From: Candidatus Sulfopaludibacter sp. SbA3
GTDB taxonomy: Bacteria; Acidobacteriota; Terriglobia; Bryobacterales; Bryobacteraceae
Assembly: GCA_945890485.1 (NCBI GenBank)
Contig: CAMDCN010000006.1
Coordinates: forward strand, 372,001-436,000
DNA length: 64,000 bases
Direction of reading: 5' to 3'
The notes beneath the pieces are model-generated. The model searched no databases. It was not told the origin of the DNA and saw only the letters and a list, made by a program, of their open reading frames with translations. Positions within the stretch are counted from its first letter, which is position 1, and each line of letters opens with the position of its first letter. This document shows positions 45,202 to 62,792 of this stretch, piece by piece. The position numbers and the translations under genes are program-made.

Positions 45202-45253
45202 ACGGCTCACTCCTTGAGGTTAGAGCAAAAGTCAGCTAAATGCAAGATGCGAG

Positions 45254-45270: not shown

Positions 45271-45284
45271 ATGGTCGCATCAGG

Positions 45285-48071
45285 CTAGGATCCATGTCGA
45301 GCGCTTCTTCGTACGCCTCGAAACAGCGGCATCTCGTATCCAATCAGGCAAAACTGGTCAAGCGCGAAGAGCACAATCGACTCAACACCTCTCGCGAATG
45401 CCATTTGTACCTCTTTTTGCCAGGTCGTCGTCGAGTCCCCTGGGCCTACCAGGAAAGCGCTTTTAGAACGAGCAAATCCCTTACTCGCGGGAAATTCCAT
45501 CGAATATCGAGACTTGTTGAGATTTCGCTCGAAGGTGAAGCTGAAGCTCTCTGTCTTCAATGCGTCCAGCTTTTCTGGTGTCCAGGAGTCCTCCGGATAG
45601 TTGACGACCCTGCCCCATGGGGTGTCATTCACGTCGGTGGGGTATAGAACCTCGTAGCGGCAATCGGGATGAAATGTACGAACGTAGCTGATCAGCTCAT
45701 CGCAGAATTGACCGACAAGCCTCGGTAGATGTTCAGCTTCTTCTGGATAGAGCGAGGGATCCACGTACTGATGTGGAATGACTCTCATCGGAAATCCGTA
45801 CTCGTCCTCGAACGATTCAAGCGTATAGGCATCATAATAGGGCAGGCTCACCCCGGACGAAACCGCAAATGGTCCTGGAAAATACCACCACTGAACTTCA
45901 CCCAGCTGCATATAAGGCGGCAACTCCGCCTCCACCAGGATGTCTGCCATCTCTTTGTGTACCCGCTGCCAGTAGTCGCGAGACACAGGAGAAAAATTTG
46001 TTTGCAACGCTGGAGTGGTGAGAAGGCAAGGTGTCCCGTCCGCGTAACGCTGTGCGATGCCAGCCTCGATTGAAGGGTCTCCATGCTCCAATTCGGTCGA
46101 AAATGCCGCCGTGACATCCCAACCATACGCTTTGCAAACCTTATAGAACTCGCGAGACCAGTCCCTGCAAGCCCGATTGATCAGGTTCGGCGAATGAAGG
46201 TCTGTCGTCCAGGTTCCCTCAACTGCTCCCGTCAGATGCGGGCTGCTCACCTGCACTTCGAACGCGCCACTCGTGGGTGTCGCCGCGACCGTCGTCATCT
46301 CACCTGCGAGTCCCATTCGTCTCGAAAAGAGCGTCAATCTCGCTCCGACTGCCTCTGCCCGGATCGCGGTGTAGCCTCGGTTGAATTCCAACTCATATGC
46401 CTTCGCAATTGTGGCGGCTGTATCGCCATACAGATTGAGATGACGGACAGTAATGGTTGAGTCTGGATCGCCGGCTGTTCCGATCTGCAGTTCCGTATAC
46501 TCGCTCGGAGTCGGTGTTCCAAGAAAATCTACCTGGCAGGACGCATAGGCGTGCCCTTTCTTATAGAGTTCATAGAATATAAGCGCTCCGACGTAGTGAT
46601 TGACGCGACCTCGAAAGCCGAGCGTATGCAGCATCCACGCAGTCCGCTCCGCTGGGACAGCCAAGGAGTGGTCGGTATCCCAATCGGTTGCGGCTGTCAA
46701 CTTCGGCATCGGTGGCAGATTCCGCACTGAGTCAGCTGGAATCGCAATCTCCAGGAAGTCGAACCAGAATCGCCATCCCGAGGGTCCATTGTGCGTTACG
46801 AAAATCGTGTGCTCACCGGGTGGATATTCTCCCACCGGAATCCGTACGAGCCGGTCTTCTCCTGCTCGACGAAGATCAAACACTCTCGCCGGTTCAGAAT
46901 CAACGCGAAATGCAATGGCCGGAGCTTGATCCAGCAATCGAGTCCCGAGAAAAAGTTCGTGAGTTTGCTCAGATCGATAAGTAATCGAGAACCCGTCGCT
47001 ATATTGGTTCGTCCAACGGATGAGTCCCCCTGAATAGTTCCCTCGCAGAAAGGAACTCCAGTTGAGCCCATAGTACTCAACCTTAGAACTGCGGCAGTCG
47101 ATTCTGCGCGATCCAGGCCCGGCCACCCGATATCGTGTGTTCACCCCGCTCACCATCCAATTAGCGATAGTAACCGCGAACTCGCTTCGAAGGAACTCAC
47201 CGGCCTGCAGGTCGGCCGCATAAGTCCATCGCATCTTGCGGACGCGGTCCATCGGAACAGGAACGCCATTGCGGTCAACCATCAGAGAAAAATCAATCGA
47301 GAATCTCCACTTAGATGGGGAGACGCCTCCCGACAATGTCTTGGCTGCGACCTCCCAGTACACGCCGCTCCCTGGCGTTGCATGTCCGTACGCACCAACC
47401 CGGTTTCCGTTGTTTCCCGTCTTACTATCTTCAAGCGCACTGCGCACTCCGCCCACTTCCCCAACATAGATCAAGATAATGGAACGATCCGCGACTAGCG
47501 CAATCATATTCTTCGATCCGATGGTCGTGCTATTGATGCTTATCGCAATAGCCTCTGCGACATCCTCGAGTGTGTCGGTGGCGCTGCATACATGAGTATG
47601 ATGCTCACCCATCCAGGACAATCCCACGGCTTCCCCTCCTGCCAGCGCGCCCGCCAAAGTGAAGGTCGCTTGCGCCGGAACGTAGGCGCCCTCGATCGGC
47701 GTCGCATATTGCAACAAGGGAACCTGGTAGAACTGCTCCAGACCCGAAGCGTCGTTGGCCCACACTCGAAGATTGTGCCAATCTACTGTTGGGAAGAGAT
47801 CGGAATCTACCAGAATGCAGTTGTCGCGGACCTCTTCATAGGTCAATTGGATTCCACTCAGGTCACCATCCGGAAGGTTCCGGAACAACGGGTGCTCCCA
47901 AACGTTATCGCGATTCCATTCAATCACGCACCAATCGAACTGCTGGCGCCACGTCCCAGAAACCACAAACGAGCTCTCATCTGCCGCGCTCATAGCGGCA
48001 ATCGCCGACGGGCGCTCGAAATAGACCTGCAGGTCGCGGTCTGGCCGCAGTTTATCGAGATACTCAGCCAT
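45285..48071 (-). CDS. large tail protein with C-terminal glycosidase-like TIM barrel
   Basis: 928 residues from the ATG at 48071, chosen for its AAGGGG ribosome site; an upstream in-frame TTG would add 7. N-terminal beta-rich region (1-460) includes a jelly-roll-like part (RLVRIPVGEYPPGEHTIFVTHNGPSGW). The C-terminal half (from about 600) reads as a TIM barrel: WSREFYKVCKAYGWDVTAAFSTELE, YMQLGEVQWWYFPG, GVESIVLFALDQF. GTA megatron proteins also carry a glycosidase-like TIM barrel, and some phage proteins called non-contractile tail sheath have one. Last gene of the cluster, at the tail-tip end. Confidence 0.6.
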   Translation of the reverse strand: MAEYLDKLRPDRDLQVYFERPSAIAAMSAADESSFVVSGTWRQQFDWCVIEWNRDNVWEHPLFRNLPDGDLSGIQLTYEEVRDNCILVDSDLFPTVDWHNLRVWANDASGLEQFYQVPLLQYATPIEGAYVPAQATFTLAGALAGGEAVGLSWMGEHHTHVCSATDTLEDVAEAIAISINSTTIGSKNMIALVADRSIILIYVGEVGGVRSALEDSKTGNNGNRVGAYGHATPGSGVYWEVAAKTLSGGVSPSKWRFSIDFSLMVDRNGVPVPMDRVRKMRWTYAADLQAGEFLRSEFAVTIANWMVSGVNTRYRVAGPGSRRIDCRSSKVEYYGLNWSSFLRGNYSGGLIRWTNQYSDGFSITYRSEQTHELFLGTRLLDQAPAIAFRVDSEPARVFDLRRAGEDRLVRIPVGEYPPGEHTIFVTHNGPSGWRFWFDFLEIAIPADSVRNLPPMPKLTAATDWDTDHSLAVPAERTAWMLHTLGFRGRVNHYVGALIFYELYKKGHAYASCQVDFLGTPTPSEYTELQIGTAGDPDSTITVRHLNLYGDTAATIAKAYELEFNRGYTAIRAEAVGARLTLFSRRMGLAGEMTTVAATPTSGAFEVQVSSPHLTGAVEGTWTTDLHSPNLINRACRDWSREFYKVCKAYGWDVTAAFSTELEHGDPSIEAGIAQRYADGTPCLLTTPALQTNFSPVSRDYWQRVHKEMADILVEAELPPYMQLGEVQWWYFPGPFAVSSGVSLPYYDAYTLESFEDEYGFPMRVIPHQYVDPSLYPEEAEHLPRLVGQFCDELISYVRTFHPDCRYEVLYPTDVNDTPWGRVVNYPEDSWTPEKLDALKTESFSFTFERNLNKSRYSMEFPASKGFARSKSAFLVGPGDSTTTWQKEVQMAFARGVESIVLFALDQFCLIGYEMPLFRGVRRSARHGS

Positions 48072-48088
48072 TAAAATTCCCCTTGTTG

Positions 48089-51000
48089 TCAAAGCCGAAT
48101 TGTTACAGTAAGATCACTTCCAGGTGTACTCTCCGCGCTCTGAGAGAGACTCACAACATCGAGATGGAGGTACGCGCCATTTCTAAGCGGAGACAACGCA
48201 AAGCCGTCCACCACGTTCGAGATCGTTGCCCCCGGTTCAATGGTGAGTAAGCAGATTTCATCGCTATCCTGCCGGAGCCGTAGCGTAACCGGACCGACAC
48301 TCGGTGCCTCCTGCACAACAGCGAATAGGTCTCGCATTACCAGAGGCCGATCCACCGAGAGTGGCGGCGTCGCCGATTCCTCAATCGCAAGCCACCCAGC
48401 AAGTTGAAGCGTGATCTGTCCCCCTTGCATCGTGCGAAGTCCATCGTCGATCGTGCTGGTGACGCTACGCCTCGAAACAGCCGAGTTGCCACGCGCGTTC
48501 GTCAGATATAGGCTGGCGCCCGCCACCCGCACGCTTGGCAAGTGAATGCTGAAAGCATAACTTCCGCTTGCGGGCGAGCCAAAGAAATCCCGCCCAAAGG
48601 GCAATATCTCTGCGCGAGAATCCAAGGGATAGATGGAGGCGCCCGCCGCGTGCTCGGATACCAGCGAACCGTATGACCCCCTCACCACCTGAATTGCGTC
48701 TCCCTCCGTTGAGACGGAGAGAACCTCAAGAAGCTCTTGGCCAATCTGAACGATCTGACCCACGCCGACCTGTCCAGGTGGCGTGAACACCACTACGTCG
48801 GTCTCATGATCCAAATTGGCGGCCAAAGTCGTCGCCGAAGGACTCTGCAGCTCGTTCCAATACTGCAAGACGAATGTTCCGGCGGTTATGGTTCGTGTAT
48901 TCACAAGCTCCGGAAACCCGATGGATTGGACTTCGATGGTTCCGTCTCCTGTAGTGCTCAGCGCAAACGTGGGGGCTGGCGGCACATCATGATCTAGTTG
49001 CATCCCGCTCGAACCGCTCAATCGCCAACGCGTCACCGGTGACAGCTCAGGTGAACACTCCCGATTACTTGCGTTGGCCGCCCGTCCAGTCACTTGCACG
49101 GTGGCACCCTCGCGATTGGGTACCTCGAATGTTGCTGGACTCGACGAAGTCGTAGCAGCAGGCACCCAACTAGAGTCGATCACCACCCAGCTGCTCGAAG
49201 CGTCTGGAATTACGCTCCAAGGTTCCATCAACACGCACTCGGTCGTGGTGTTTGAATCGATTCTCCTCTCTTGTCCTAGTCCTTTCCCCTTTGTGATTCG
49301 AACAGTTTTTGCCCGCCACTCGTTGGCCAGCATGGTCAGGAGGGGATTGCCAATCGTCGTCGATGACGATGTCGTGGCGATCCATTCGCCCTGCAACTCC
49401 AGACGCCAATAGAAGTTCGCATGCGAAAAATTTTCGTCTGGAGGTGAAATCAATCCGGCAGTCCCGCCGATATCCACATACGAAGCGGCGATTGCAAGGT
49501 CCGTCCCAATCCTAGCGAGTTGCTGAGGCGTTGGTCCCCGATACACGTTGAACGACTCCGTCCCAGGACCAAAACTCAATCCAGTAAGCGTCACAACATT
49601 GGTATCGGAGCCCGGTGGAACCACTGCCCGAACCACGAATGAGGTTCCCCCTTCCCGTTGCTCCGCATCCAGCCCAGTCAGTGTGTAGTAAAGGATCTGA
49701 TCGCCCGCGATCGATCCACCCTCCTGCTCTGTCGATGGGCTAAGGGAAAGCAACGGAATGCCTGCCCTGGAACCCGCCGGCCTCGCTGGCTCATGGAAAC
49801 TTACCGAAAGTTCCGTCCTGGCCCGGCCGTCTGTCTCCTCTGTATACGTCTCCACGACGCCAAACCGGGGAACGCCCTCTTCGTCCAACTCGGATCCAAT
49901 CAGCGGGCGTGGCAGCCCAAGCTCAAACCTCGGCTGGCGGCCTGACGATTCCATTCCATTTCCAGCCGTGAGTACGTACCAGCTCTCGTCGTGCCATTGC
50001 AGGGTCAACTGAACTGTCCGGAAGTTCTGGCCTGGAGCCAGACGAAGAACCCGAAACAACTGGCGATTCAAGCCCTCCTTCGTATAAGAAACCGTAACCA
50101 GGTCTCCCGGACGAATCCCCAATGCCTTTACTGACGACACAAGCTCGAGGTAGACATTTCCTCGAACACTCTTCAGCAGGTGTAGCTTGGTCACTCTCGA
50201 GGCCTGATCGAAGTTCGCGAGCCCCAGTGCCGGCAACGAACCGCTAATCTCTTGTCCTATAGTAACGACATCTTCCATATCCAGAAGCGAGAAAGAGTCT
50301 TGCTGATATTCATTGAAAGCGTCTTGAAACTCGACACTGTACCGATTAGGCGTGTCGGCTGAGTTCCGTGAATACATTCGGATCCTCGGCTCGCCACTCG
50401 AATCGCGGAGAATGTCTCCCTCATCAAATTCATACGCAGGCCAACCGCCAAAAAGCGGGATGGTAGCGTTGGAACCATTCGAAGCCGCCGGCTGTTGAAC
50501 TCCAATCGTCGACTCTTGCCGCAGCTGTAGCTTGCCACCGTAGCCAAACGTGAGGTACAACCCTGCGCAATTACGGATTCCTCGAACAACCTCCGCCGCG
50601 CTCCGTCGACGCCGAAGGACAAGGTTACACTGATACCGCGGCAGCATAAGTGCATTCCCATGCAAATCGACGGTCTCAATCTCATCGTCACAGTAAGCAG
50701 CGGTATTGCTGAAGCTCGACAGATCAATCTCATCAAGGCTCCAGCCGCTCCTCCGCAGAACATCCAGCAGAATCCATGCCGGATTGCTGGTGTGCGAGAA
50801 AGAGAGAGTATCCCCCACTTCATTGAAGATGGGCAGCTTGGTGCCCTTGAGTAGCACCTGAACCTGGGGTAGGGACCGCCCATCCTGAATCCGGCTCGGC
50901 ACGACGATAGAGAGATATGCCATGCTCCCGTACGGGTCCCCGAGTGGATCACCTATTGCATCAACGAAATTCAGGTTAAAGTCACCGGTCCGATTTCCCC

Positions 51001-52003
51001 TTCCGACTAAGTGGTACCATCCTGTCGCGGTCATGTCCGTTCCGTTGACGGCTAAAGGTATTTCTACATCGTTGACCACAACCTTGACCACGCCCTCGAT
51101 CTCACCCAGCGCCAACAGCGCCTCCATGCGGGTCAGATTACCATCGTTCCGGGCAAGCGTGATTGGCGGTTGCATCCATCCCGTGCCATACACAAGTGGA
51201 ACGAAGTCATTGTACTTAGCCTCATTGGATTGAACCGCCGACAGTGAATGGACTTTGTCGCCGTGTCCCCGGACTGCCGTTGTTGACGGTACAAACTCAA
51301 TCCCTCCAAACCTGCGAGTAATCTGAACCAGCGAGTCTTGCTGAAACATACCGCGCTCAACGCATGATTTGCGCGTGTAGTCGCAACTGTCGAATGGCAC
51401 TTCGCCGTTCAGATTCCCCACCCCACCCTCGACACCAGCCGAGTATCCACAACGGAAGAACGGAGAGTAGGCTCCCCGTTCGCCTCCGGTGATCGCCTCC
51501 GTCCGTTGCTCGGTCGTCGTCGGGAACAACCAAGGGCATCGTTTCTGAATCCGCACGTCCGGCAATAGAATTCTTTGAAAGTTCAGCCGGTTATTGAAGG
51601 TGACCCGGAACGTTGACTCGCGAATCTGATCTGGCGCGTTTCCTGAACCACGGAAGATTGTGATCGCTTCCGAAACCGGAACACTCGAAACGAGATCGAA
51701 GAACGCAAATCGAACGTGCAGGCGGGAACCCTTGAATCCGAGCGTCCTCTCCAACTGGGAGTAGCGGGAGTCTGCGTTCGCCAAGACGAGGCTAACCTTC
51801 GCGGAAGTATCAATCCCATCTTCGGAGTAAGCTCGAATGTCGAAGCCCGTGTGCTCCAGCAGCCTGGCTTCGTAGACTACCCCTTCAAAGTCAACTCGAT
51901 GAGTCGCCCAGAAGTGTCGCTGTCCATCTCGTAATTCGCATTCAAAGAGGAGAACTGGCGTCTCAAGCTGTTCTTGCTCCTTCATCTCGTGAATCGTCGG
52001 CAT
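48089..52003 (-). CDS. tail hub: gpL-like four-Cys domain fused to gpJ-like hub and fibronectin-type C-terminus
   Basis: 1304 residues. N-terminal 220 residues resemble DUF2163/lambda gpL-type tail-tip proteins: beta start VLLFECELRDGQRHFWATHR and Cys156, Cys185, Cys207, Cys214 (RCPWLF, FRCGYS, DSCDYTRKSC) spaced like the iron-sulfur ligands of gpL. Next, a hub region (about 260-700: PLVYGTGWMQPP, VRGIRNCAGLYLTFGYGGKLQLRQES, GIRPGDLVTVSY) as in gpJ/GTA hub proteins, then beta-sandwich repeats and a carbohydrate- or fibre-like end. Normally two or more separate genes. Confidence 0.7.
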   Translation of the reverse strand: MPTIHEMKEQEQLETPVLLFECELRDGQRHFWATHRVDFEGVVYEARLLEHTGFDIRAYSEDGIDTSAKVSLVLANADSRYSQLERTLGFKGSRLHVRFAFFDLVSSVPVSEAITIFRGSGNAPDQIRESTFRVTFNNRLNFQRILLPDVRIQKRCPWLFPTTTEQRTEAITGGERGAYSPFFRCGYSAGVEGGVGNLNGEVPFDSCDYTRKSCVERGMFQQDSLVQITRRFGGIEFVPSTTAVRGHGDKVHSLSAVQSNEAKYNDFVPLVYGTGWMQPPITLARNDGNLTRMEALLALGEIEGVVKVVVNDVEIPLAVNGTDMTATGWYHLVGRGNRTGDFNLNFVDAIGDPLGDPYGSMAYLSIVVPSRIQDGRSLPQVQVLLKGTKLPIFNEVGDTLSFSHTSNPAWILLDVLRRSGWSLDEIDLSSFSNTAAYCDDEIETVDLHGNALMLPRYQCNLVLRRRRSAAEVVRGIRNCAGLYLTFGYGGKLQLRQESTIGVQQPAASNGSNATIPLFGGWPAYEFDEGDILRDSSGEPRIRMYSRNSADTPNRYSVEFQDAFNEYQQDSFSLLDMEDVVTIGQEISGSLPALGLANFDQASRVTKLHLLKSVRGNVYLELVSSVKALGIRPGDLVTVSYTKEGLNRQLFRVLRLAPGQNFRTVQLTLQWHDESWYVLTAGNGMESSGRQPRFELGLPRPLIGSELDEEGVPRFGVVETYTEETDGRARTELSVSFHEPARPAGSRAGIPLLSLSPSTEQEGGSIAGDQILYYTLTGLDAEQREGGTSFVVRAVVPPGSDTNVVTLTGLSFGPGTESFNVYRGPTPQQLARIGTDLAIAASYVDIGGTAGLISPPDENFSHANFYWRLELQGEWIATTSSSTTIGNPLLTMLANEWRAKTVRITKGKGLGQERRIDSNTTTECVLMEPWSVIPDASSSWVVIDSSWVPAATTSSSPATFEVPNREGATVQVTGRAANASNRECSPELSPVTRWRLSGSSGMQLDHDVPPAPTFALSTTGDGTIEVQSIGFPELVNTRTITAGTFVLQYWNELQSPSATTLAANLDHETDVVVFTPPGQVGVGQIVQIGQELLEVLSVSTEGDAIQVVRGSYGSLVSEHAAGASIYPLDSRAEILPFGRDFFGSPASGSYAFSIHLPSVRVAGASLYLTNARGNSAVSRRSVTSTIDDGLRTMQGGQITLQLAGWLAIEESATPPLSVDRPLVMRDLFAVVQEAPSVGPVTLRLRQDSDEICLLTIEPGATISNVVDGFALSPLRNGAYLHLDVVSLSQSAESTPGSDLTVTIRL

Positions 52004-52028
52004 AGTGGGGGCTCCGGGAACCGCAAAG

Positions 52029-52823
52029 CTAGACAGCGCGGGTCAATAGGGAAACAGTGGTGCGATGGTCATTCGGTCCGTTGGTAGTACGGGACAGTGA
52101 ATCCATCGCAAAACGAACTTTTGGGTGCACGCCGTGGCGAGTACTGCTTCGGCGATAAGCGGCCGGGGCCGGTTGGGCGTCGACCTGTGCTCCTACGGCA
52201 TAAACGGTCACGCCGGCTGGTAGCTCCCAACCAAATCCGATGGAATTCAGCTCACTTGGAAGGCTCACACTCAGGTGGAATCGTTTCCAGGTGGCTGTCG
52301 GAAACACAAGCTGAGTCTGGGTATAGCCCCCGGACGCGGCCAGCAAAGTGACAGGATCAGAAGTGAGCCCTCTCAGCCAGACGCTCAAGCAATAGGAGTA
52401 GTTGCCTGGTGCCTCAATCGCTTGAATCACGGCCTGCGGAGCGATGGCGCTATTTGAGACAGACGTCGCTCGTTGGCTACCCCATGGGTCACTCTGGCCA
52501 TCGGATAGCATGAGCAGTGGACCGACGGTCCAAACGCTGCGCGCGAAGTCCTCGCTCCATCGCAAAAGATTCAATGCGGGATCAAGAAACCCGAAAGTGC
52601 CTCGCCGTCCCTCTTGAGAGAGAAAGAATGCTTCCACGGCGTCCATCTCCATGTCGGAAAGGCCATTGAAACCAAGCGAAAACTCCAGTGCTGAGCCAAA
52701 AGGATCCAGGCTCTTTACCTCGCTTCCATCGGAAAGCGTATTCACCACGGTTCGGTAGAGTTGCTTTCTTTGCAAGGGAAACTGGCTCACGGCGCCCGTA
52801 GACAACTGTGGGAAGAAGGGCAT
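52029..52823 (-). CDS. distal tail-like protein (DUF2460-related) with C-terminal lectin-like domain
   Basis: 264 residues. First ~85 residues (FFPQLSTGAVSQFPLQRKQLYRTVVNTLSDGSEVKS ... MDAVEAFFLSQEGRRGTFGFLDP) align by eye with the next gene upstream. The remaining ~175 look like a jelly-roll carbohydrate-binding domain (YSYCLSVWLRGLTSDPVTLLAASGGYTQTQLVFPTATWKRFHLSVSL). DUF2460 proteins are distal tail proteins of GTAs and siphophages. Confidence 0.65.
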   Translation of the reverse strand: MPFFPQLSTGAVSQFPLQRKQLYRTVVNTLSDGSEVKSLDPFGSALEFSLGFNGLSDMEMDAVEAFFLSQEGRRGTFGFLDPALNLLRWSEDFARSVWTVGPLLMLSDGQSDPWGSQRATSVSNSAIAPQAVIQAIEAPGNYSYCLSVWLRGLTSDPVTLLAASGGYTQTQLVFPTATWKRFHLSVSLPSELNSIGFGWELPAGVTVYAVGAQVDAQPAPAAYRRSSTRHGVHPKVRFAMDSLSRTTNGPNDHRTTVSLLTRAV

Positions 52824-52830
52824 AGTTGCG

Positions 52831-53187
52831 TTACCTCACCTCTCGAATAATTAAGGTCGTGCTGCCGCGATGGATGTCCCGGTAGTCCGCCAGAATATGG
52901 GAACTTTCGAACTGACACTCCTCATAGAGCGTTCCGTCCCAAGGGTCGACAAATGAGAAAGTCCCGAACCCACCCTGTTCCTGTGCGTAAAACGACTCCA
53001 TCCTGGCAAGTTCCTCTTCGTCAAGATCATCCAGCCGGACAATCCATCGCAGCACTGGCTTCGGGAAGTTTCTGAAGCGTTGTTCCGACCCGTCTGCGAA
53101 CTCGAGTACCTCGGTCGCGAACTGGCGGTCACGCGTTGCCGGCCACTGCATAATTGCTCCACTTTTCAGATAGGGAAAGGAGCTCAT
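52831..53187 (-). CDS. distal tail-like protein (DUF2460-related), short form
   Basis: 118 residues. SSFPYLKSGAIMQWPATRDRQFATEVLEFADGSEQRF, LARMESFYAQEQGGFGTFSFVDP: the same scaffold as the first third of its neighbour. Overlaps the tape measure gene by 4 bp. Probably forms the hexameric ring below the tail tube. Confidence 0.65.
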   Translation of the reverse strand: MSSFPYLKSGAIMQWPATRDRQFATEVLEFADGSEQRFRNFPKPVLRWIVRLDDLDEEELARMESFYAQEQGGFGTFSFVDPWDGTLYEECQFESSHILADYRDIHRGSTTLIIREVR

Positions 53188-53852
53188 AGGTCATTCACCA
53201 TATCGTTCAGTGAGTGAGAATGGAGCATCGCCTCTCTAACGGCCATTGCGATGTCTTCACTGTGATCAAGGAAGCTACGGCTATCCATCGCGTTAACCTG
53301 TACGGTGATGTTTTGGGATGCAACGCTCCCTGTTTGTGTGCCGCCACGCCCAGCGTATAACTGGGGAAGTTGACTGTCGGGCTGACGCAGCGGCCGGATT
53401 CGGTCACCGGCCCCGCGGTCAATTGAAATGGTCTGGCCATCTACTGCGAGGCCGGCCTCCGTCTTAATCGGAGCCGGAAGACTAAACCGGACTGGCGCTG
53501 CCTCCTCGGCTGGATTGTCCCGCCGAAAAAGCCCGAGGAGTCCATTGATGAAAGGCGCCAAGGTCAAGCCTTTCAATAGGAAGCTGCCGGAAGTCTTCGC
53601 GACGTCTCCCGCCAGAGATGTCAGAGCCCCGCCGTTACTCACTGGTGAAGAAGTGAGACCTGGATTTGATGATGCAGTGGCCGGCCGAAAGTCAGACTGG
53701 GTAAGATCGCCAATCTGCCTCGCTAGTACTTGTACCGCCTCCCGGGCTTCGGCTCCCGCTAGGGAACGGATTTCATCCATTCCCTGAGGGAAGAAATCTC
53801 CGCCGGCGAGTAAATTATGCTGCAACTCCTCCAAATCAAGATGATTCGCCAT
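53184..53852 (-). CDS. very short tape measure-like protein
   Basis: 222 residues in the tape measure slot between the tail chaperone and distal tail genes. Pattern: helical N-terminus (LDLEELQHNLLAGGDFFPQGMDEIRSLAGAEAREAVQVLARQIG), hydrophobic centre (ALTSLAGDVAKTSGSFLLKGLTLAPFINGLLGLF), and a C-terminal SQNITVQVNAMDSRSFLDHSEDIAMAVREAMLHSHSLND that resembles tape measure C-termini. Most siphophage tape measures exceed 600 residues, so the tail would be very short. Confidence 0.6.
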   Translation of the reverse strand: MANHLDLEELQHNLLAGGDFFPQGMDEIRSLAGAEAREAVQVLARQIGDLTQSDFRPATASSNPGLTSSPVSNGGALTSLAGDVAKTSGSFLLKGLTLAPFINGLLGLFRRDNPAEEAAPVRFSLPAPIKTEAGLAVDGQTISIDRGAGDRIRPLRQPDSQLPQLYAGRGGTQTGSVASQNITVQVNAMDSRSFLDHSEDIAMAVREAMLHSHSLNDMVNDL

Positions 53853-54530
53853 TGTTTCGCTCCTTAAGTAGTTCGCTCTCCAGGATTGTAAATGCCTCCG
53901 CCGACTTAGCTGGATAGCGCATTAAGTCGGGTTTGCCCCCAAATCGCCACAAATGATACTCCTCGAGCCACGCGTCACTGTCGCCCGTTACATAGCTTCG
54001 GGGGCATTCGTCACAGGTAATGTGGTTCCTGAGCCACACGGGACGAGTCGCCTCACCGTCCCGCGGAAGGAAGCCGCATCTACGCTTTTTCTCCAAGCCT
54101 TGCTGCCTGCACGTGTCGCACTTCCATGCGGCTTGATTCGCAAACTGAAAGTGGAAGGCGACCGTTAGTTTTTTCGCTCTTCCTCGCTAAGGAAGCACTC
54201 GGCGCGAATTGCCTCCGCGATTTCGTGGCAGAGTGCCTCCGGACCCTTCTCCAGAAGCAGATCATGATCTGCCGGTCGATCGTCGATGAACAGGCCTTCA
54301 AGACTGCTTAGTCCCCAACGAATGTAGATGGCCTCGATCGATGCCGTCACCTCTCTCGCCCGAATCTGATCAGCCATCCCATCACTGGCACTGTGAAATT
54401 CTAGGTCGCGCCCCTCCTGTCTAACCAGCCGAAGGAGGTCCAGGCGTCCCGACAAAGACAGTTTCTTGATGGCAAACCAAACTCCCGGAAACGCCGTCGA
54501 CTCTTTGCGTACCGTACTCTGATAATTCAT
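53836..54530 (-). CDS. tail assembly chaperone, -1 frameshift fusion (GT-like)
   Basis: Programmed -1 frameshift product: 121 residues of the short form, then 110 residues in the -1 frame, about 231 in all. After the slip the -1 frame is open from 54168 to the stop at 53836 without interruption. The extension carries CDTC and CDEC pairs that could bind zinc. Ratio of short to long chaperone controls tail assembly in lambda-like phages. The extension overlaps the tape measure start by 17 bp, as usual for GT. Confidence 0.75.
54165..54530 (-). CDS. tail assembly chaperone, short form (G-like)
   Basis: 121 residues. Compact helical protein (FAIKKLSLSGRLDLLRLVRQEGRDLEF, EAIYIRWGLSSLEGLFIDDRPADHDLLLEKGPEALCHEIAEAI). 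Lies between tube and tape measure genes, the G slot. Its last codons CGA AAA AAC TAA contain the slippery heptamer. Confidence 0.75.
   Translation of the reverse strand: MNYQSTVRKESTAFPGVWFAIKKLSLSGRLDLLRLVRQEGRDLEFHSASDGMADQIRAREVTASIEAIYIRWGLSSLEGLFIDDRPADHDLLLEKGPEALCHEIAEAIRAECFLSEEERKN
54168..54174 (-). promoter_or_regulatory. -1 ribosomal frameshift site A_AAA_AAC
   Basis: Heptamer AAAAAAC in exact X_XXY_YYZ phase, immediately before the zero-frame TAA. This is one of the most slippery heptamers in bacteria, in the classical place for tail chaperones. Confidence 0.8.
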
Positions 54531-54539
54531 CGGATGCTC

Positions 54540-55709
54540 CTACGCGAACGCAATGCGAATCTCATCGTCGAGTGTTCCGCTGGCTTGGCTCATTCCAAAT
54601 GCCCATTCCAGTCGCGGATTTCGGTCATCGAACTCCGGAACCTCGGGTACGACATTCGGCAGATAAATACCGCACAGTTGCCCCGGCTGTTCCCCCAACT
54701 GCAACATCACCGAGATCGGCTGTCGATTTCGCGCCGCAGCATACAATCCCTTCGTCGCCTCGTCGTCCTGTTCCAGGATTCGGAATCGCATACCCACCTC
54801 GCGTTCCCCCGCAGCGAGGCAGCGTGGACCATCGAACCCGAACTCTCGCTTCCGCATGTCGATGTTGTTCTTTACCGAAACCTCCGCATCCGTCAACGTG
54901 AAGAAGCGCGTCGCCGTGGAGCCCATCCACACTTGCCCCAGATGGCCTGGGATGATCTGATAGTCGATCTCCCCCGCCTGTGGCTCTGCCGGAAACTCCG
55001 TCAGAGCTCCGAGACCCTCAGTAAAGGAAACACTATCAATCAACTGGCGTGCTTCGCCCTGAAATTCAAGTTCGTGGAAGTCGCCATTCACCTTGATCTT
55101 TAACGTGTCAACCGCTCCTCCGGACAGCAGTCGCTGAACGGCAGTCGAAGGGCTCCAGTAGTCGAACAGAGACACACTCGGCAACTGGGTTGCCGGACTG
55201 TAGGTAATTGTTGGATTCAGCGGCGCGCCAGGAACTGGTACTTCGCTAAATGGGGCATTCAGTTGAACTGTCGTCGGATTCACAACGGCTTCAACGAATC
55301 GAATCTCACTTCCGAAGCTGATTGCTTGCCCTGCCGTGAGCCCATGCGGTCCGCCCAACGTTAGATTGTTGCCGTTCGCTGAGGCAATCGTTTGTCCCCC
55401 ATCAAACTGTGGCGAGGCTCCCAGCGCCCCCTGAATCAGTGGACCATACGAAGGCTCCCCTGTCGTATTGGCCCAATTGGTTAAGTACGTTTCCAATCGA
55501 TACTCGGTCTGGTCACGCGTGCCTGTAGGTACGGCGTTCCGTGAACGGCTCCCTGTCTTGTCCCGGCGTCGTCCCGACTGTGTTTCGTTCTTAATGGTGA
55601 GCCGAATCGCGGGGATGCGGTTCTCGGCTGTAACCGAGGAGGTCACTCCGAAGCCCTCTTCGAGTGCTGTATAGAAGCGATTCTGATTGGATGAAATATA
55701 GCAGGCCAT
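54540..55709 (-). CDS. major tail tube protein
   Basis: 389 residues from MACYISSNQNRFYTAL with GAGG eight bases upstream. Two-part tube protein: YYxSNQNRFYxALEE-type start and repeated beta-barrel halves (SVSLFDYWSPSTAVQRLLSGGAVDTLKIKVNGDFHELEFQGEARQLIDS; RFFTLTDAEVSVKNNIDMRKREFGFDGPR), as in siphophage and GTA tubes. Ends with a C-terminal PRLEWAFGMSQASGTLDDEIRIAF unit. Tube rings would stack around the short tape measure. Confidence 0.75.
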   Translation of the reverse strand: MACYISSNQNRFYTALEEGFGVTSSVTAENRIPAIRLTIKNETQSGRRRDKTGSRSRNAVPTGTRDQTEYRLETYLTNWANTTGEPSYGPLIQGALGASPQFDGGQTIASANGNNLTLGGPHGLTAGQAISFGSEIRFVEAVVNPTTVQLNAPFSEVPVPGAPLNPTITYSPATQLPSVSLFDYWSPSTAVQRLLSGGAVDTLKIKVNGDFHELEFQGEARQLIDSVSFTEGLGALTEFPAEPQAGEIDYQIIPGHLGQVWMGSTATRFFTLTDAEVSVKNNIDMRKREFGFDGPRCLAAGEREVGMRFRILEQDDEATKGLYAAARNRQPISVMLQLGEQPGQLCGIYLPNVVPEVPEFDDRNPRLEWAFGMSQASGTLDDEIRIAFA

Positions 55710-55719
55710 ATCGATTCCT

Positions 55720-56214
55720 CTATTTGCTGATCTGTAAATCAAAAGTGGCTTTCGCAACTTGGATGTAGTGCTTGCCGCCAGGTTTAACCGCACTGAAGGA
55801 AATCTGGTAGCCGCCGGTATAGAATTGCCCGTCTCCCCAGTCGCCCCTGTTTGAATCCAGCGTCTCGGTCAAGGCGTCGACGTAGAGTTGGATGGCGCTG
55901 GCAAGATGTTCAAGCCGGTCATGAGTCACCCGCACTTCCACTGACAGTGTCGCGGTGCCGGAGAACTGCCGGAATTTCTCCCGAAGCGTGTTGTTTAACT
56001 TCTCACAGTAGAGAAAATATGTCGGATAATGGGTCCCCGTCGATCGTTCTACGAGATCAGGTGATATGTTTTGAGCAACAATCTGACTGTCCTGTAGCGG
56101 CGCCAGTTCGTTTCCACTTCGAATGCACACCGCGGCAAGTCCGTTCGCCAGACCGGTCGGGGCCCGGAGTAGATTCTCCAATGTCTTAACAGCGCTGTTT
56201 GCGAGCTGTGCCAT
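55720..56214 (-). CDS. tail terminator/head-tail joining protein
   Basis: 164 residues. Size, slot (just before the tube gene) and alpha/beta pattern (YPTYFLYCEKLNNTLREKFRQFSGTATLSVEVRVTHDRLEHLASAIQLYVDALTETL) fit gpU-type tail terminators. Ends 10 bp before the tube start. Assignment from order and shape. Confidence 0.6.
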   Translation of the reverse strand: MAQLANSAVKTLENLLRAPTGLANGLAAVCIRSGNELAPLQDSQIVAQNISPDLVERSTGTHYPTYFLYCEKLNNTLREKFRQFSGTATLSVEVRVTHDRLEHLASAIQLYVDALTETLDSNRGDWGDGQFYTGGYQISFSAVKPGGKHYIQVAKATFDLQISK

Positions 56215-56218
56215 GCGG

Positions 56219-56965
56219 TTAGCCTCTCAAGAAGGTTGTCGTGCGACGTAACGACGCATCGGGGTTCTGTCCGTTCGGGGGGGCCATTCCAGAACGAAGT
56301 CCTTCGTCCGGGAGTAACCATTGTTCGGATAGCATTAGGGGCGCTGGATTCTGCCGCGCCAAGGTGTCCTCGCTGCTGCCGACGTATACATTCCACGCCA
56401 AGGCATTCACCGGCGGTGCCGGGCGCGCCACCGTAAGTGACGATCCTGGTTCTGTCCCAATGGATGCAAGTGGACTTGCTTCACTCTCAGCGCCATGGAT
56501 ACTGATCCAGCTTACCTTCGCGAACCACGCGCTTGCCTCATGGACGCCGACAACCTGCCCCAGGAATGGCCTGTCGGGCCGATGGATTGGCGAATAGGTG
56601 ATGCCGACTCCGAGTTGAAACAGCAGATCGGCTGCGGATTCGCATAGCACTAGGTAGGCGTCCAGCTTGTGTTTGTAGCGTTCATTGAGTTGCTGATGGT
56701 AGGCGTCAAGGTATGTCAACGAAAGTGTGCGAAGTATATGCCAGCGCCGAAGAGCATCAGTCACTACCACCTGGTTGATGCTAATATTGCTAGCCGCAGC
56801 GACTCGCAACAGGAATCTTTGGATTTCGAGATTGAGCTCGGTCGCTGCCACGGTCCCTTTCGTCGCCAGGTCAATTCCTTCGGCAGCAGCCGTCTGAAAG
56901 ATCGAGCTTTCGTACTGCGAAAGGTCGCTGGGTTCTGATGGAATACTATCTACGAAGAGTGCCAT
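56219..56965 (-). CDS. head-tail connector/adaptor-like protein
   Basis: 248 residues. N-terminal helical segment (SDLSQYESSIFQTAAAEGIDLATKGTVAATELNLEIQRFLLR) and DAYHQQLNERYKHKLDAYLVLCESAADLLFQLGVG resemble adaptor (gp6-like) proteins; the C-terminal half is beta-rich (WNVYVGSSEDTLARQNPAPL). Four bp from the next gene. Tentative. Confidence 0.55.
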   Translation of the reverse strand: MALFVDSIPSEPSDLSQYESSIFQTAAAEGIDLATKGTVAATELNLEIQRFLLRVAAASNISINQVVVTDALRRWHILRTLSLTYLDAYHQQLNERYKHKLDAYLVLCESAADLLFQLGVGITYSPIHRPDRPFLGQVVGVHEASAWFAKVSWISIHGAESEASPLASIGTEPGSSLTVARPAPPVNALAWNVYVGSSEDTLARQNPAPLMLSEQWLLPDEGLRSGMAPPNGQNPDASLRRTTTFLRG

Positions 56966-56976
56966 ACGTTAGTCCT

Positions 56977-57285
56977 TCAACCTCTCCGGGCCCGAGGCAC
57001 GGCGGAGTGCTTTGTTGTTGTCTCGATCACGGCAGGAGACGTTGCATCGGGCAGTGAAGCCGCTGTTGCAGGCACTCGAGTTCGGCGAAACTGCGTTTGT
57101 TCGTCGGTCGTCGCCAGTCTGGCCTTCTGCTCCACGACTAAGCGGGCGCCGGCTTGTCGAGTGACCTCGCTGAATACGCCGGCCTTCCCCCCGTCGCTCG
57201 TCGCCTCGCTCACTACCAACACATCGGGTCCTTCGATCTGGTTCTCGATGAGCTGTACCGCCGCATAATACTGTCGTAAGTCCAT
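56977..57285 (-). CDS. small head-associated hypothetical protein
   Basis: 102 residues; GAGGGAG ribosome site. N-terminal half is ordered (MDLRQYYAAVQLIENQIEGPDVLVVS), C-terminal half is basic and Thr/Ala-rich, probably disordered. Between coat and connector genes; could be a head fibre or decoration protein. Unassigned. Confidence 0.55.
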   Translation of the reverse strand: MDLRQYYAAVQLIENQIEGPDVLVVSEATSDGGKAGVFSEVTRQAGARLVVEQKARLATTDEQTQFRRTRVPATAASLPDATSPAVIETTTKHSAVPRARRG

Positions 57286-57345
57286 AGTGTCTCCCTCGCT
57301 TAGTAATGGAAGTGCCGGGCGGCCGCGGCCGCCCGGCTGGTCGAA

Positions 57346-58257
57346 CTAGCTGCGTACCTGAACGCCGAAGTTGTTGCGCAGCACCGCGACGCCGTATAGG
57401 CAGTCGACGGTGAACTGCTGCGCCAAGGTGTTCGGCTGGTAGCTCATCATCACTCGCATGCCAAAGTTGCCGAGCTCGGAGTACTCTGCAATTGCTCCGG
57501 TACCCGGCAGCGGCTGCGGCAAGCGGCGAACACACAAGCCGATGGCGTCTTTTGCAAAGGCCAGATTCTGCGTCGTCGTGGGCGCCGAACCAGTCTTTGA
57601 GACGAACTGAGAACGAAATACGAAGAAGTCCTTCAGTTTGCCAACCGAGCCATCGATCATGGCCCGGACTCCCGCCTCGCCGGCCGTGTTGTACTCCGAG
57701 AAGCGTGGAATCTGCCGCAATTGCGAGTACGTGCTGCCGTCCACCACGAGGTACTTCTGAGACGCCGAAGGAACTTTCGCGTTGAAGAGCGCCGTCTCGG
57801 CTTCGTCCACCAGGGATTCCGAGATCGGCGACCCAGCAAAGCCCAAGGCGGTATTCGCAGTGAACTGCGAGTACAGTGAGAGCAGATCGGACTCGATCTT
57901 CTCGGCTAGGGCCACGACCGCCGGCTCCATATACAACCGCAGCAAATCGGGAACTGCCAGTACCTTGGTAACATCCGGAATCTGGAAGGTCGCCTCTGCA
58001 TGGGTGTTCAACACGATCTGCGCGTTGCCCAAGCTCGGATTCTGCGTCGTGACGGTGCCGCCCTGAGCAATATTGTTGGCCACCAGCGTCGGCGGAATCG
58101 GAACGTTGATCGTGTCACCAGCTTGAGCCAGAGACGGCTCAAAGTTCCGATTCACCAGGTTTCCCATCACCAGGTTGCCCATCAGGGCCGGCAGCGCGTC
58201 CGCCGCAACCAATTTCACAAGCGCATTCGCAACATTCGCTGAAGTAATAGCAGGCAT
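57346..58257 (-). CDS. major capsid protein, P22 coat-like (HK97 fold)
   Basis: 303 residues from MPAITSANVANAL with AAGGAG upstream. LPALMGNLVMGNLVNRNFEPSLAQAGDTINVPIPPT and MEPAVVALAEKIESDLLSLY, plus the C-terminal LGNFGMRVMMSYQPNTLAQQFTVDCLYGVAVLRNNFGVQV, match the P22-gp5-like/coat family. Shorter than the coat of the left prophage (402), lacking its I-domain-size insert. Strong ribosome site suits a highly made protein. Confidence 0.88.
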   Translation of the reverse strand: MPAITSANVANALVKLVAADALPALMGNLVMGNLVNRNFEPSLAQAGDTINVPIPPTLVANNIAQGGTVTTQNPSLGNAQIVLNTHAEATFQIPDVTKVLAVPDLLRLYMEPAVVALAEKIESDLLSLYSQFTANTALGFAGSPISESLVDEAETALFNAKVPSASQKYLVVDGSTYSQLRQIPRFSEYNTAGEAGVRAMIDGSVGKLKDFFVFRSQFVSKTGSAPTTTQNLAFAKDAIGLCVRRLPQPLPGTGAIAEYSELGNFGMRVMMSYQPNTLAQQFTVDCLYGVAVLRNNFGVQVRS

Positions 58258-58275
58258 GTTATGTCTCCTTAAATG

Positions 58276-58306
58276 AAAACGCCCCAGCCGATGTGGCATT
58301 GGGGCG
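58276..58306 (-). terminator. hairpin with T tract just upstream of the coat gene
   Basis: Minus-strand CGCCCCA...TGGGGCG stem (58300-58306 with 58280-58286) followed by TTTTC, ending about 18 bases before the coat ATG. It may attenuate readthrough into coat, or protect a processed coat transcript's 5' end. Confidence 0.5.
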
Positions 58307-58413
58307 GTTGTGTTCTGTATCAGGCCGGACAGTTCCAGCCTTTATGTTTGCCAGTGCCTATCGAGTCCTCGGGGGTCCCTCGGTCAGATGGCTATTGACG
58401 TTTCCATTTCCCA

Positions 58414-59001
58414 CTACCGGGAACTGTTAATCTGCTGGGCGATCCGGGAGATCTCTTGCCGAGCTCGTTCCAGATCTTCCTTCGGCATACCGGGGCGAAT
58501 TTTGTCGATGTCGAAACCGACACCCGATGAGGCCACAGGAGCTTTCGGGTTGTTCGTCGCTCCTGACCCGCCAGTAATCCTGGCAGGCAGCAATTCGGGA
58601 TTCTCATTAACGAAATTCGTGAGATATTCCTTGACAGGCAAGTCGCCAGTCGTCGTCTTGGCGACCAATCGCCCATCCTCGGATCGCTGAATATCGTCCT
58701 TTACCGCTCGGAAAGCAAGGTCGAGCTTCTGCACGCCGAGACGCTGCAGTTCGCTGCGGATGGCAGAGCTGCGTTCTGCCTCCTCGGCGATCAGCCGGCT
58801 GCGGCGATTCTCTTCAACGAGTTCGTTCATTCGACGCTCGAGTTGCTCACGGCGACGCCGTTCCTCTTCGAGTTCGATTTTGTACGCTGGTTCGCTTTTG
58901 GATTGCTCCAGGTTGACGAATTCCCGTACGGCCTCTTGGATCAGGTTTCGAAAATCGACCCCTCGACCTGTCGTCACTTGCTCATGTTTGCTCTCATCCA
59001 T
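58414..59001 (-). CDS. scaffolding-like protein
   Basis: 195 residues, strongly charged and helical: long coiled coil (KSEPAYKIELEEERRRREQLERRMNELVEENRRSRLIAEEAERSS), then a Gly/Pro-rich linker and a C-terminal basic helix. The composition and position between portal and coat fit a scaffold. Confidence 0.7.
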   Translation of the reverse strand: MDESKHEQVTTGRGVDFRNLIQEAVREFVNLEQSKSEPAYKIELEEERRRREQLERRMNELVEENRRSRLIAEEAERSSAIRSELQRLGVQKLDLAFRAVKDDIQRSEDGRLVAKTTTGDLPVKEYLTNFVNENPELLPARITGGSGATNNPKAPVASSGVGFDIDKIRPGMPKEDLERARQEISRIAQQINSSR

Positions 59002-59013
59002 GCGTCCTCCTCC

Positions 59014-60423: not shown

Positions 60424-60518
60424 GGTGGGTCCTTGTGTGCTGAAGTGAGAGGATTGCGGTGAGTCGAAGCACACCACGCGTCTGTTTGTCGCCGTCGCGC
60501 CGAAGGCCGCAGTTGGTC

Positions 60519-61850
60519 CTAGAAGCCTGGCAAGCGCCGCGTCTTGTATCCGGCCGGTTGCCTATGCTCGTTGCTGACCACTTGCCAGAGCAGATATCCC
60601 AAGGCATCGGAGACGTGAGTCCGTTTGGAGTCCTGGCCTTTGTCGATAATCATCGTACCCGGCAACAAAGTCACTTGTTCGAGATCTTTGATCAACTCTT
60701 TGCATCGCGGGTCTACATACAGACGTCGTTTTCCGGCGGCATCCTTTAGCGTGCTGTTCATCAGAACAAGTCGCTCTCGAACGGCTGGATTCTGAGGTGG
60801 TAGTTCCACCTGGCATCCTTGTATGTTTCGTGTCCGAAAGAAGGAACTGATGGCATCCGCATCGCGCGGCCCGGTAGTCTTCATCGAGTTGCCCGATGCA
60901 TCGCCGAATACCGTCAAGCCGTTGCAGGCCGGAAAACGCCGTAGAAATTCTTCACAGGCCTCCCACGTGGTTGCGCGGGATAGTGCAATCTCGTCGATTA
61001 CGTGGATCGTATCGCCGTGTATTTGTACGACTACTGAAGACATAGGGTCCACGTTGAAGTCCATCGCCCAGTACAACGCCCGGTTGGGTTCGTAAGGGCA
61101 CGGTCTCACGTTGTCGTTCCTGTCGAAGCTATAGTACGCCTGCCCCGCACTGATGTTTAGGTAGCTGCCCAAAACCTCCTGCTGATAGAAGCGTTCGTCG
61201 TAGCTTTCCTTCAATCTGTCGTAGAAGTCTGGAATGGTTTCTAGTAGGTGTCGATTTTCTCGCGGTTGCGCGAGAATCGCCTTGTATCCGCTAACCGGGT
61301 TTGCGAGAAAGCGCTTGTAGACCCAGTCGAACCCTTTCGGTGTCCAAACCCCGAATCCGGACAGTTGTTTGGCCTTGGGATCACGCAATCTACCTTCAAG
61401 GCGGAGCCATGCCTCTTCCCGGCAATAAGTAAGCTCATCGACGCCGAACCAAGCCAAATTCGTTCCGCGGAGTCTTTCAAAATCCTCCAGGCTTCGAAAT
61501 GTGATCTTCGAGTTCGTGTCCAGCATGCTCAAGCAGTTATCTGCCTTATTGAACGAGGTCGGAATGCGGTTTTCTTCCAACAGGTCGAACAGGCTTCTTT
61601 GTGTGGCATCTCGTAGCATCGGAAAGGTGGGTGCGGCCAGCATTCCCTGCCGGCCAGGATTCAGGTAGCTGAGCCGAATGGCCTCGTGGCACAATGCTTG
61701 GCTCTTACCTGATCCGATAGGGCCGGAAAAGCCCTTGAAGCGGGCCTGACAGTCGTGAAAGGCCCGCTGTGATGGCAGGGCATCGTAAAGAATTGGGCGG
61801 TCAACTGTTACTCGGGCTTTGCTGGAGAGTCTTGTTCTCGTTCTATCCAT
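60519..61850 (-). CDS. terL: terminase large subunit
   Basis: 443 residues. Walker A GPIGSGKS (43-50), Walker B AWFGVDE, coupling WTPKGFDWVYKRF, and an RNase H-like nuclease: Asp in YWAMDFNVDPMSSVV, VFGDASGN and HVSDALGYLLW. All catalytic positions present. Unrelated at sequence level to the terminase of the left prophage. Overlaps terS by 43 bp. Confidence 0.92.
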   Translation of the reverse strand: MDRTRTRLSSKARVTVDRPILYDALPSQRAFHDCQARFKGFSGPIGSGKSQALCHEAIRLSYLNPGRQGMLAAPTFPMLRDATQRSLFDLLEENRIPTSFNKADNCLSMLDTNSKITFRSLEDFERLRGTNLAWFGVDELTYCREEAWLRLEGRLRDPKAKQLSGFGVWTPKGFDWVYKRFLANPVSGYKAILAQPRENRHLLETIPDFYDRLKESYDERFYQQEVLGSYLNISAGQAYYSFDRNDNVRPCPYEPNRALYWAMDFNVDPMSSVVVQIHGDTIHVIDEIALSRATTWEACEEFLRRFPACNGLTVFGDASGNSMKTTGPRDADAISSFFRTRNIQGCQVELPPQNPAVRERLVLMNSTLKDAAGKRRLYVDPRCKELIKDLEQVTLLPGTMIIDKGQDSKRTHVSDALGYLLWQVVSNEHRQPAGYKTRRLPGF

Positions 61851-62047
61851 CTCACCAACACCTCGCTTGGTCTGTTGACGTCCTGCATTGCGTTATGCGC
61901 CTCGATCAGTCGGATCAGATCACCCGGATTTGCTTTAAAGTCATCTCGATTCTGCAATTGTTCATGCAGTTTGTGCAGCGCCAATTCGATCAGATGAAGT
62001 TTAAACTTGTCGGTGACTATTGTGGCCTTCGGCCGCTCTTTCTTCAT
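61808..62047 (-). CDS. terminase small subunit-like protein
   Basis: 79 residues from ATG 62047 (a TTG codon precedes it). Helical, basic then acidic: FKLHLIELALHKLHEQLQNRDDFKANPGDLIRLIEAHN. Small size and overlap with terL fit a minimal terS. No clear helix-turn-helix, so specificity for a pac site may be weak, as for GTAs that package random DNA. Confidence 0.6.
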   Translation of the reverse strand: MKKERPKATIVTDKFKLHLIELALHKLHEQLQNRDDFKANPGDLIRLIEAHNAMQDVNRPSEVLVRWIEREQDSPAKPE

Positions 62048-62050
62048 CAA

Positions 62051-62792
62051 TCTCGTTAGTCCTTGTGAATGTGTCCTGCGCCAACTGGGCGGCGTCTCTC
62101 TCGCAACTCCAAACTATCAGTCCGGAGTGTGTTGCTAGCTGCTTAGTGGCTGCAAGTATCTGAAAAGAAAAGGAAAAAAGTTGAGAACTGCTCGTGAACG
62201 TCAGTTTTGGCCGCCGCGAAGGCACCAACTAAGCACGAAGAGCGGGTCGATCCGGTGCGATGCGGGAGTCGGTGGCGAGAAAGAGGTCGATTCGCAGTTG
62301 AGCTTTCCAATCTCGTCTGGGAAACGACTCAGAATCCGCTCGAAGAAGAACGATATGGTGCACACGGCTCATCGGCTCGTTGAGCCCGGGACAAATACTC
62401 TGAGGGGTCTGCTGCGCCATTGCCGTTCGCGTGTTGGTCTCGGTAGCCAACGGCGTGCGTGAGGTGCGCCTGGAGACTTTCGCGACTGACTTGGTGAAGC
62501 ACAGCGGAGTTGCCTCTGGCTGTTCGCAAGGCTAGTGTGGCATCGTGATACCCCGATGTGGCGAGGTGGTGCCGTCCATCCCGTCTGAGATGCACAAACT
62601 CCCGGGCTGGAAGTCCGACGCTAGCGATTTGGTTCTGGAGCACACCCGTCCGAAACTGGGAACGGTCGCCGGCGACGCCTGGCGTGTAGCTACGGCTGAT
62701 TCTCCAGGCGATTCTGGAGTGCAAAAAGGATTCGGGATCCTTAGCCAGCAGTGCTGGCGATAAGCACTCGGGCCCTGATGCCCAGGACTTCG
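62051..62792. other. gene-free region upstream of the head-tail cluster
   Basis: About 740 bp. The open frames here have composition of random reading and no ribosome sites. A pyrimidine run (TTTTTTCCTTTTCTTTTC on the minus strand, near 62165-62182) is the only marked feature; I saw no clear promoter boxes, tRNA or integrase remnant. It must hold the start of cluster transcription, or the regulator acts from elsewhere. Confidence 0.5.

Follow-up and report, generated by a model that had tools for sequence, protein, structure and literature searches.

A candidate gene transfer agent of independent origin in the acidobacterial order Bryobacterales

Gene transfer agents (GTAs) are defined, in the portion of PMC9662315 used here, by six features: particle proteins derived from a tailed phage, encapsidation of mostly random host DNA, full endogenization in the host genome, a genome that cannot be fully packaged as the head is too small, vertical inheritance with co-diversification, and delivery of DNA to other cells. 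Passages of PMC12946183 describe GTA activity in gut Oscillospiraceae and Ruminococcaceae, and passages of the review PMC11841831 hold that the true prevalence of GTAs is open and that homology, synteny and gene content cannot now definitively locate new ones. In Bryobacterales, extracts of PMC11924767 (2025) describe 'group (i)' proviruses with a common gene order, including those of Ca. Solibacter usitatus and Paludibaculum fermentans. Our literature search, with subscription journals mostly outside its coverage, found no paper describing a GTA in Acidobacteria or Bryobacterales; in the excerpts of PMC5900883, 'gene transfer agents' is used once and in a general sense. Here we analyze a window of 64,000 nucleotides from Candidatus Sulfopaludibacter sp. 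SbA3 (G000:C6:372001-436000 of a 7.1 Mb draft genome), in which 16 co-directional genes on the minus strand (45285-62047), running from the small terminase (TerS) to the tail tip, sit between ilvB and an unrelated upstream region.

This cluster is a tailed-phage head-tail operon that is usually present in a single copy, is largely inherited vertically, is under purifying selection and has once been lost by internal deletion. It has very probably been domesticated, and we consider it likely to be a GTA of independent origin fixed in Bryobacterales (Acidobacteriota). The coat gene was matched in 128 of the 150 family genomes, in 94 of the 109 of high quality and in 70 of the 76 genera; the cluster coat itself is counted in 127 of the 150, since the match in G138 reaches only 25% identity. 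Full-length first copies were 67-100% identical, and a further copy at more than 60% was found in four genomes (G041, G032, G054 and G100). The hub was present in five of the 22 genomes without a coat match (two of these partial), so that coat or hub occurs in 132 of the 150. At the level of the order 152 of 200 genomes matched, three of them outside the family, and in a sample of the phylum 6 of 396 did, where identity above 60% was seen only in the source genome of the window and in one further member of the family. Presence across Acidobacteriota genomes is thus nearly order-wide rather than sporadic, as would be expected if the initial annotation was right to propose a GTA. The host labels of 80 listed genome contigs were Bryobacter, Bryobacterales, Bryobacteraceae, Solibacteraceae, Solibacter, Paludibaculum or Sulfopaludibacter for 43, other Acidobacteriota for 35 and other for 2. 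Among 50,697 phage records, the best listed coat match was 27.5% identical and none attained 60%, while hub matches all fell short of covering 80% of the protein.

A temperate prophage to the left of the cluster in the same window (2699-40019) served as a positive control. It combines an integrase (2853-4112) with portal, large terminase (TerL) and P22-like coat genes, and a perfect 45-bp repeat stands at its two ends (2699-2743 and, within tRNA-Arg, 39975-40019); integrase and att repeats are the marks of a temperate prophage, and neither was found with the cluster. This left prophage is patchy in the family: relatives of its coat at 31-56% identity were found in only 6 other genomes of 150 (a tally of 125 consists mostly of weak cross-matches to the cluster coat), and its TerL matched 2 of 60 other genomes. 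Its cargo between 11000 and 17000 is low in GC (about 0.50) and includes a P-loop ATPase-like gene (13332-14639) that, together with its partner (14636-15577), may form a defence pair.

If the cluster belonged to a still-mobile or recently active prophage or satellite family with very high prevalence in the order, its filing as a virus would be natural: IMG/VR holds at least 576 contigs related to it by coat and at least 592 by portal, and the element is probably the same as the 'group (i)' proviruses of PMC11924767, as far as its text describes them. We regard such mobility as highly unlikely. The flanks 39001-45290 and 62041-64000 share no exact direct repeat of at least 13 bp, in line with the earlier observation that att repeats are absent, and the same script did find the 45-bp pair of the left prophage. 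Host genes lie adjacent, and no tyrosine integrase was listed within 15 kb of the cluster in 25 genomes (weaker matches were unlisted and serine recombinases were not searched), the nearest listed one lying ~18 kb away in G104; an integrase next to the cluster, named in the initial annotation as evidence against a GTA, was thus not encountered among tyrosine integrases. Contig sizes point the same way. Among the 80 listed matches, the longest IMG/VR contig was 21.2 kb in the cluster coat search and 23.8 kb in the portal search, whereas the phage-type portals described below recovered 3, 12, 1 and, by alignment, 34 contigs in sets that overlap; of these last 34, 17 are above 30 kb and the largest reaches 73.6 kb. 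The IMG/VR 'viral' contigs L305-L384 and L400-L466 are probably this chromosomal cluster, and hundreds of such entries would inflate acidobacterial virus counts.

Congruence with rpoB (below) and loss by a single internal deletion also argue against mobility. In G119 (L386:9755-12376) a single open frame joins the start of TerL to the TIM-barrel protein that ends the cluster, the mark of a deletion of ~14 kb as judged against this window. TerL was sought in 12 of the 17 genomes lacking both coat and hub: G126 and G024 have it at a contig end, and G119 has the fragment just described, with two weak matches (25-27%) left uncounted; in G024 the TerL fragment and a trace of the TIM-barrel protein stand at a contig start.

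The initial annotation had taken base composition as a sign of long residence. The figures behind it hold, the GC content of the cluster (0.554) being near that of ilv-leu (0.548) and below that of the left prophage (0.630), but they mislead, as the surrounding chromosome is at 0.613-0.625 and it is the left prophage, not the cluster, that resembles it; we therefore reject the argument. Across 53 genomes, GC at third codon positions in the cluster follows that of rpoB (r 0.68).

The genes of the cluster are as follows, g5 to g11 being our labels for genes named by order.

61808..62047, minus strand: TerS, small terminase, 79 amino acids (aa); overlaps the TerL start; assigned by position and by homology across loci
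60519..61850, minus strand: TerL, large terminase, 443 aa; phrog_2 8e-34, PF03237
59014..60477, minus strand: portal, with a conserved start near 60423; phrog_145 7e-47; 451-497 aa in 57/57 genomes
58414..59001, minus strand: probable scaffolding protein; phrog_1879 E 0.003 and position; profile match in 57/57 loci
57346..58299, minus strand: major coat, P22-type, ~303 aa, with a conserved start near 58257; PF11651 2e-17, phrog_283 5e-43
56977..57285, minus strand: g11, 102 aa, probable head/neck protein by position; tblastn match in 54/60 loci; no PHROG match
56219..56965, minus strand: g10, probable head-tail connector by position; 244-275 aa in 57/57 genomes; no family match
55720..56214, minus strand: g9, probable tail terminator/completion protein by position; profile match in 56/57 loci; no family match
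54540..55793, minus strand: g8, tail protein (tube or minor tail); phrog_290 9e-12; 381-417 aa in 56/56
54165..54530, minus strand: g7, probable tail assembly chaperone by position; 113-166 aa in 55/55 extracted
53836..54096, minus strand: g6, probable second chaperone by position; 54 genomes, 5 short
53184..53852, minus strand: g5, tape-measure position, 222 aa; longest open reading frame (ORF) in the slot 153-270 aa in 54 loci
52831..53187, minus strand: DUF2460 protein a, distal-tail type; PF09343 2.9e-10
52029..52823, minus strand: DUF2460 protein b, distal-tail type; PF09343 7.7e-6, below the curated cut-off
48089..52003, minus strand: hub/tail-tip protein, 1304 aa; PF13550 Phage-tail_3, phrog_31; 1272-1313 aa in 55/55
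45285..48092, minus strand: TIM-barrel protein of the non-contractile tail sheath family, 928 aa from the first ATG; PF23845 1.3e-19

All structural ORFs thus lie on the minus strand, as first described, with the 102-aa gene at 56977-57285 as an addition to the earlier gene list. Family matches cover TerL, portal, P22-type coat, a weak scaffold, minor tail, two DUF2460 proteins, the Phage-tail_3 hub and the NCTSP TIM barrel, and PHROG and Pfam searches gave no integrase, repressor or replication family within the cluster, which bears out the earlier gene inventory. Its statement that lysis genes are absent stands insofar as none was identified, but is less certain, as six cluster proteins have no family match: g5, g6, g7, g9, g10 and g11 in PHROG, and the first five in Pfam (the 102-aa ORF of g11 lay outside the Pfam scan). 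The roles of these six are assigned from gene order since no library match exists. In a PDB sequence search the coat was matched only weakly (8zdh, E 3.5e-4) and the TIM-barrel protein had no credible match (E 0.5). By profile the TIM-barrel protein was found in 35 of 57 loci, and other ORFs follow the hub in 20. The unit does not extend to the ORF that precedes TerS (window 62793 into L032), which was found in none of 60 loci. With head and packaging genes conserved, the cluster is not a tail-only tailocin, and its 222-aa tape-measure slot predicts a short tail. In G550, from another family of the order, a 601-aa ORF (L387:5784-7589) fills this slot in place of ~220 aa, which suggests a longer tail there.

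For the comparisons that follow, 60 loci of up to 20 kb each were taken from coat matches, favouring longer contigs; L061, L062, L080 and L086, of a different and mostly phage-like type, were excluded from the selection and tree work, leaving 56 and the window. Gene order was the same and spacing nearly the same in most of the 60, a few being cut by contig ends. The cluster could be an inert relic kept by chance, and losses, copies lacking TerL and split coat frames do occur. This is extremely unlikely, as every extracted copy, albeit from longer contigs, holds full-length frames for the coat (302-317 aa, 57 loci), portal (451-497 aa, 57), TerL (388-446 aa, 52) and hub (1272-1313 aa, 55). Frames below 80% of the median length were seen in g5 (12/52), g9 (9/56), g6 (5/54), scaffold (2/57), each DUF2460 gene (1) and the TIM-barrel gene (1/36). 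A relic is also hard to reconcile with ratios of nonsynonymous to synonymous substitution (dN/dS, NG86) below 1 over genus-level divergence. For nine cluster genes these were 0.056-0.180 in G044/G144 and 0.018-0.109 in G109/G132, next to 0.056 and 0.038 for rpoB. Across nine pairs and 13 cluster genes, no measurable value exceeded 0.46, the highest belonging to small tail genes and to the pair G047/G127; many dS values were saturated. The purifying selection that the initial annotation expected is therefore seen in the pairs measured.

Vertical inheritance, likewise anticipated, was supported by a tree of seven concatenated cluster proteins from 46 genomes. It shared 21 of 43 splits with rpoB (with labels shuffled 200 times, 0.2 splits were shared on average and never more than 2), and all eight multi-member genera were monophyletic in it; rpoC, a shorter control, shared 14 splits with rpoB. 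The correlation of pairwise distances with rpoB was weak (Spearman 0.155-0.352), in our opinion because distances saturate, and trees were therefore used instead. Three of the six GTA features are thus observed, namely phage-derived particle proteins, vertical inheritance with host co-diversification, and endogenization, the last judged from the lack of integrase or replication families inside, of att repeats and of a listed integrase within 15 kb, and from the adjacent host genes.

The terminase genes bear on packaging. TerL retains GPxGxGKS, DE and acidic residues, which we take to be the Walker A, Walker B and nuclease-type motifs, in at least 51 of 52 rows. A TerS homologue adjoins it in 50 of the 52 TerL-bearing loci (E-values relative to 58 candidate ORFs), with a size of 51-133 aa in the 49 loci measured and a conserved core of ~65 aa made up of a helix, a second helix (GDxIRLLQLxxEL) and a strand-like end (EIxVxWVE). 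Many copies have basic N-terminal tails, their start codons being uncertain. An AlphaFold2 model (mean pLDDT 81) contains nothing beyond two helices; no convincing family match and no recognisable N-terminal DNA-binding domain were found, and Foldseek returned nothing at E <= 0.001. In GTA-type terminases, according to passages of PMC6854486, TerS adjoins TerL, is shorter than phage TerS and lacks an N-terminal helix-turn-helix; the short TerS beside TerL, with no domain match and a two-helix model, fits this description. In two phage relatives TerS has 197 and 203 aa and its N-terminal half matches the PHROG terminase small subunit. The shortness of TerS is to be read with care, as a rough scan of 30 phage-type contigs for the longest ORF ending near TerL gave at least 137 aa in 21 but no more than 106 aa in the other 9, some contigs being cut by their ends. 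A TerS stub may make packaging promiscuous.

Several observations weigh against a GTA. Five of the 57 loci, in three lineages (G103, G054, G146, G104 and G050; loci L051, L056, L073, L092 and L098), keep head and tail genes and have no TerL before the portal, and a TerS profile found nothing in them; other ORFs, host-like by our reading of their sequence, take the place of TerL. A search of four g55 genomes turned up no homologous TerL elsewhere, and for a terminase acting in trans a phrog_2 search of g55 gave only terminases of other kinds, with no clear substitute. In G128, an assembly break explains why TerL stands on a separate contig. Although it lacks TerL, the pair G104/G146 has low dN/dS (coat 0.068, g8 0.115, hub 0.168). 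Further, the cluster TerS profile gives no significant match to the two phage TerS proteins, so their comparison rests on position; 17 of the 150 genomes have neither coat nor hub; the coat is in two adjacent pieces in G067, G087, G095, G102 and G141 (frameshift or assembly error); rpoB contradicts 10 of the 32 splits that are well supported in the cluster tree (for rpoC, 3 of 12); and no lysis or regulatory gene was identified for the cluster, RcGTA-type regulators not having been looked for. Nor are flanks conserved family-wide, and of the conserved position suggested at first only recurrent neighbours in part of the family remain. In 18 of 57 genomes the cluster is followed, on its own strand, by a homologue of a Wzt-type ABC ATPase, which in 15 of these (11 genera, including the divergent g55 and the query genome) starts 20-104 nt past the last cluster gene, and ilvBNC adjoins the cluster in five (three downstream, two upstream); other flanks vary between genera.

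In the TerL-less lineages either another terminase serves or the particle is used without packaging. A rival reading of the cluster is a domesticated virion kept for killing, signalling or interference with infecting phages, in which coat subunits common to both might poison phages or be taken over by them; packaging genes would then be dispensable. That three lineages lost TerL, show no TerS and yet keep the genes from the portal onward speaks for it, as does the conservation of the coat, whose median difference between genera (21.8%) is close to that of rpoB (17.7%). Coats of two phage lineages, moreover, nest among those of the cluster, so coat compatibility may matter to phages. We nevertheless judge such a use unlikely: TerL, its catalytic motifs conserved, is retained at 52 of 57 loci and is under purifying selection in the pairs measured, and a particle that serves to kill has no use for a terminase, portal or scaffold. 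A GTA thus remains our preferred reading.

The phage relatives (L080, L086, L389 and L061), found in the same hosts, have a homologous coat (60-77%), portal (about 28-34% identical to the cluster's) and scaffold, with TerL and tail genes in the same order where the locus extends that far. They differ from the cluster in longer contigs, in the longer TerS of two, in tape-measure slots of 1145 and 999 aa in two (against 222 aa), and in clamp, ParB-methyltransferase or exonuclease genes in three. Loci of this second type bear a DNA polymerase clamp (G041, G054), a ParB-methyltransferase (G054) and an exonuclease (G100). Portal and TerL trees split phages from cluster (supports 1.0 and 0.995), and coats do not split. 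A quick tree was built from 57 cluster coats and 37 of phage type. Of the phage-type coats, 31 fell on one side without cluster rows (support 89), and six stood among cluster coats: L086 and L489 with G032 (98), L478 and L487 with G007 (100), L062 with G100 (88) and L515 (52). Since L086, L489, L478 and L487 carry phage-type portals while their coats nest among cluster coats, it appears that phages captured the cluster coat gene at least twice, a direction that we read from the nesting. L515, for its low support, and L062, a lone coat frame with no other cluster genes, were not counted. The latter, in G100 (L062:13616-14473, minus strand), lies ~16 kb from the phage-type cluster L061 on the opposite strand and groups with the coat of the resident cluster. 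The cluster coat of its own host ranks second of 57 in similarity to the L080 coat (support 92 in a smaller tree), but an origin of the L080 coat from that cluster was dropped after failing in the larger tree, and the L389 coat, most similar to its host's cluster coat, groups with phages in the tree. An order-wide GTA of separate origin whose coat was captured more than once by infecting phages, so that phage and host particle share capsid subunits, is a tentative reading to which we give somewhat less than even credence. If it is true, phages may exploit the host transfer machine, or be packaged or inhibited by it.

Random packaging and transfer of host DNA is, from gene content and conservation, a likely function for the cluster. 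In the model we propose, the operon would be transcribed in a few cells under some host signal, TerL and a TerS stub without a sequence-reading N-terminal domain would start headful packaging on arbitrary chromosomal DNA, and a P22-type head and short tail with a DUF2460/hub tip would carry it into related cells. As with other GTAs, genes for lysis, regulation and uptake would be located at other places in the genome. Such transfer would be a route of gene exchange within a mostly uncultured bacterial group. The locus offers a testable GTA candidate in an abundant soil order, and the prevalence contrast with a resident prophage, rpoB congruence, the TerS stub and the contig-size ceiling offer in-silico criteria for other GTAs.

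Among described elements, the 'group (i)' proviruses have hosts (Ca. Solibacter usitatus, Paludibaculum and Bryobacteraceae metagenome-assembled genomes) that overlap those of the cluster; the main text of PMC11924767 calls them proviruses, with 'gene transfer' occurring 0 times there. They are probably the same element, likened by hosts and description and not by sequence. The cluster coat has the family PF11651 in common with P22-like coats. Its TIM-barrel protein shares PF23845 with the non-contractile tail sheath, a family we take to be N4-type. The Rhodobacter-type agent (RcGTA), whose coat is of a type other than P22, and the Rhodogtaviriformidae of Alphaproteobacteria differ from the cluster, which has a coat matching the P22 type only (PF11651), P22-like as first noted, a large single hub and a separate TIM-barrel sheath-family protein, and belongs to another phylum.

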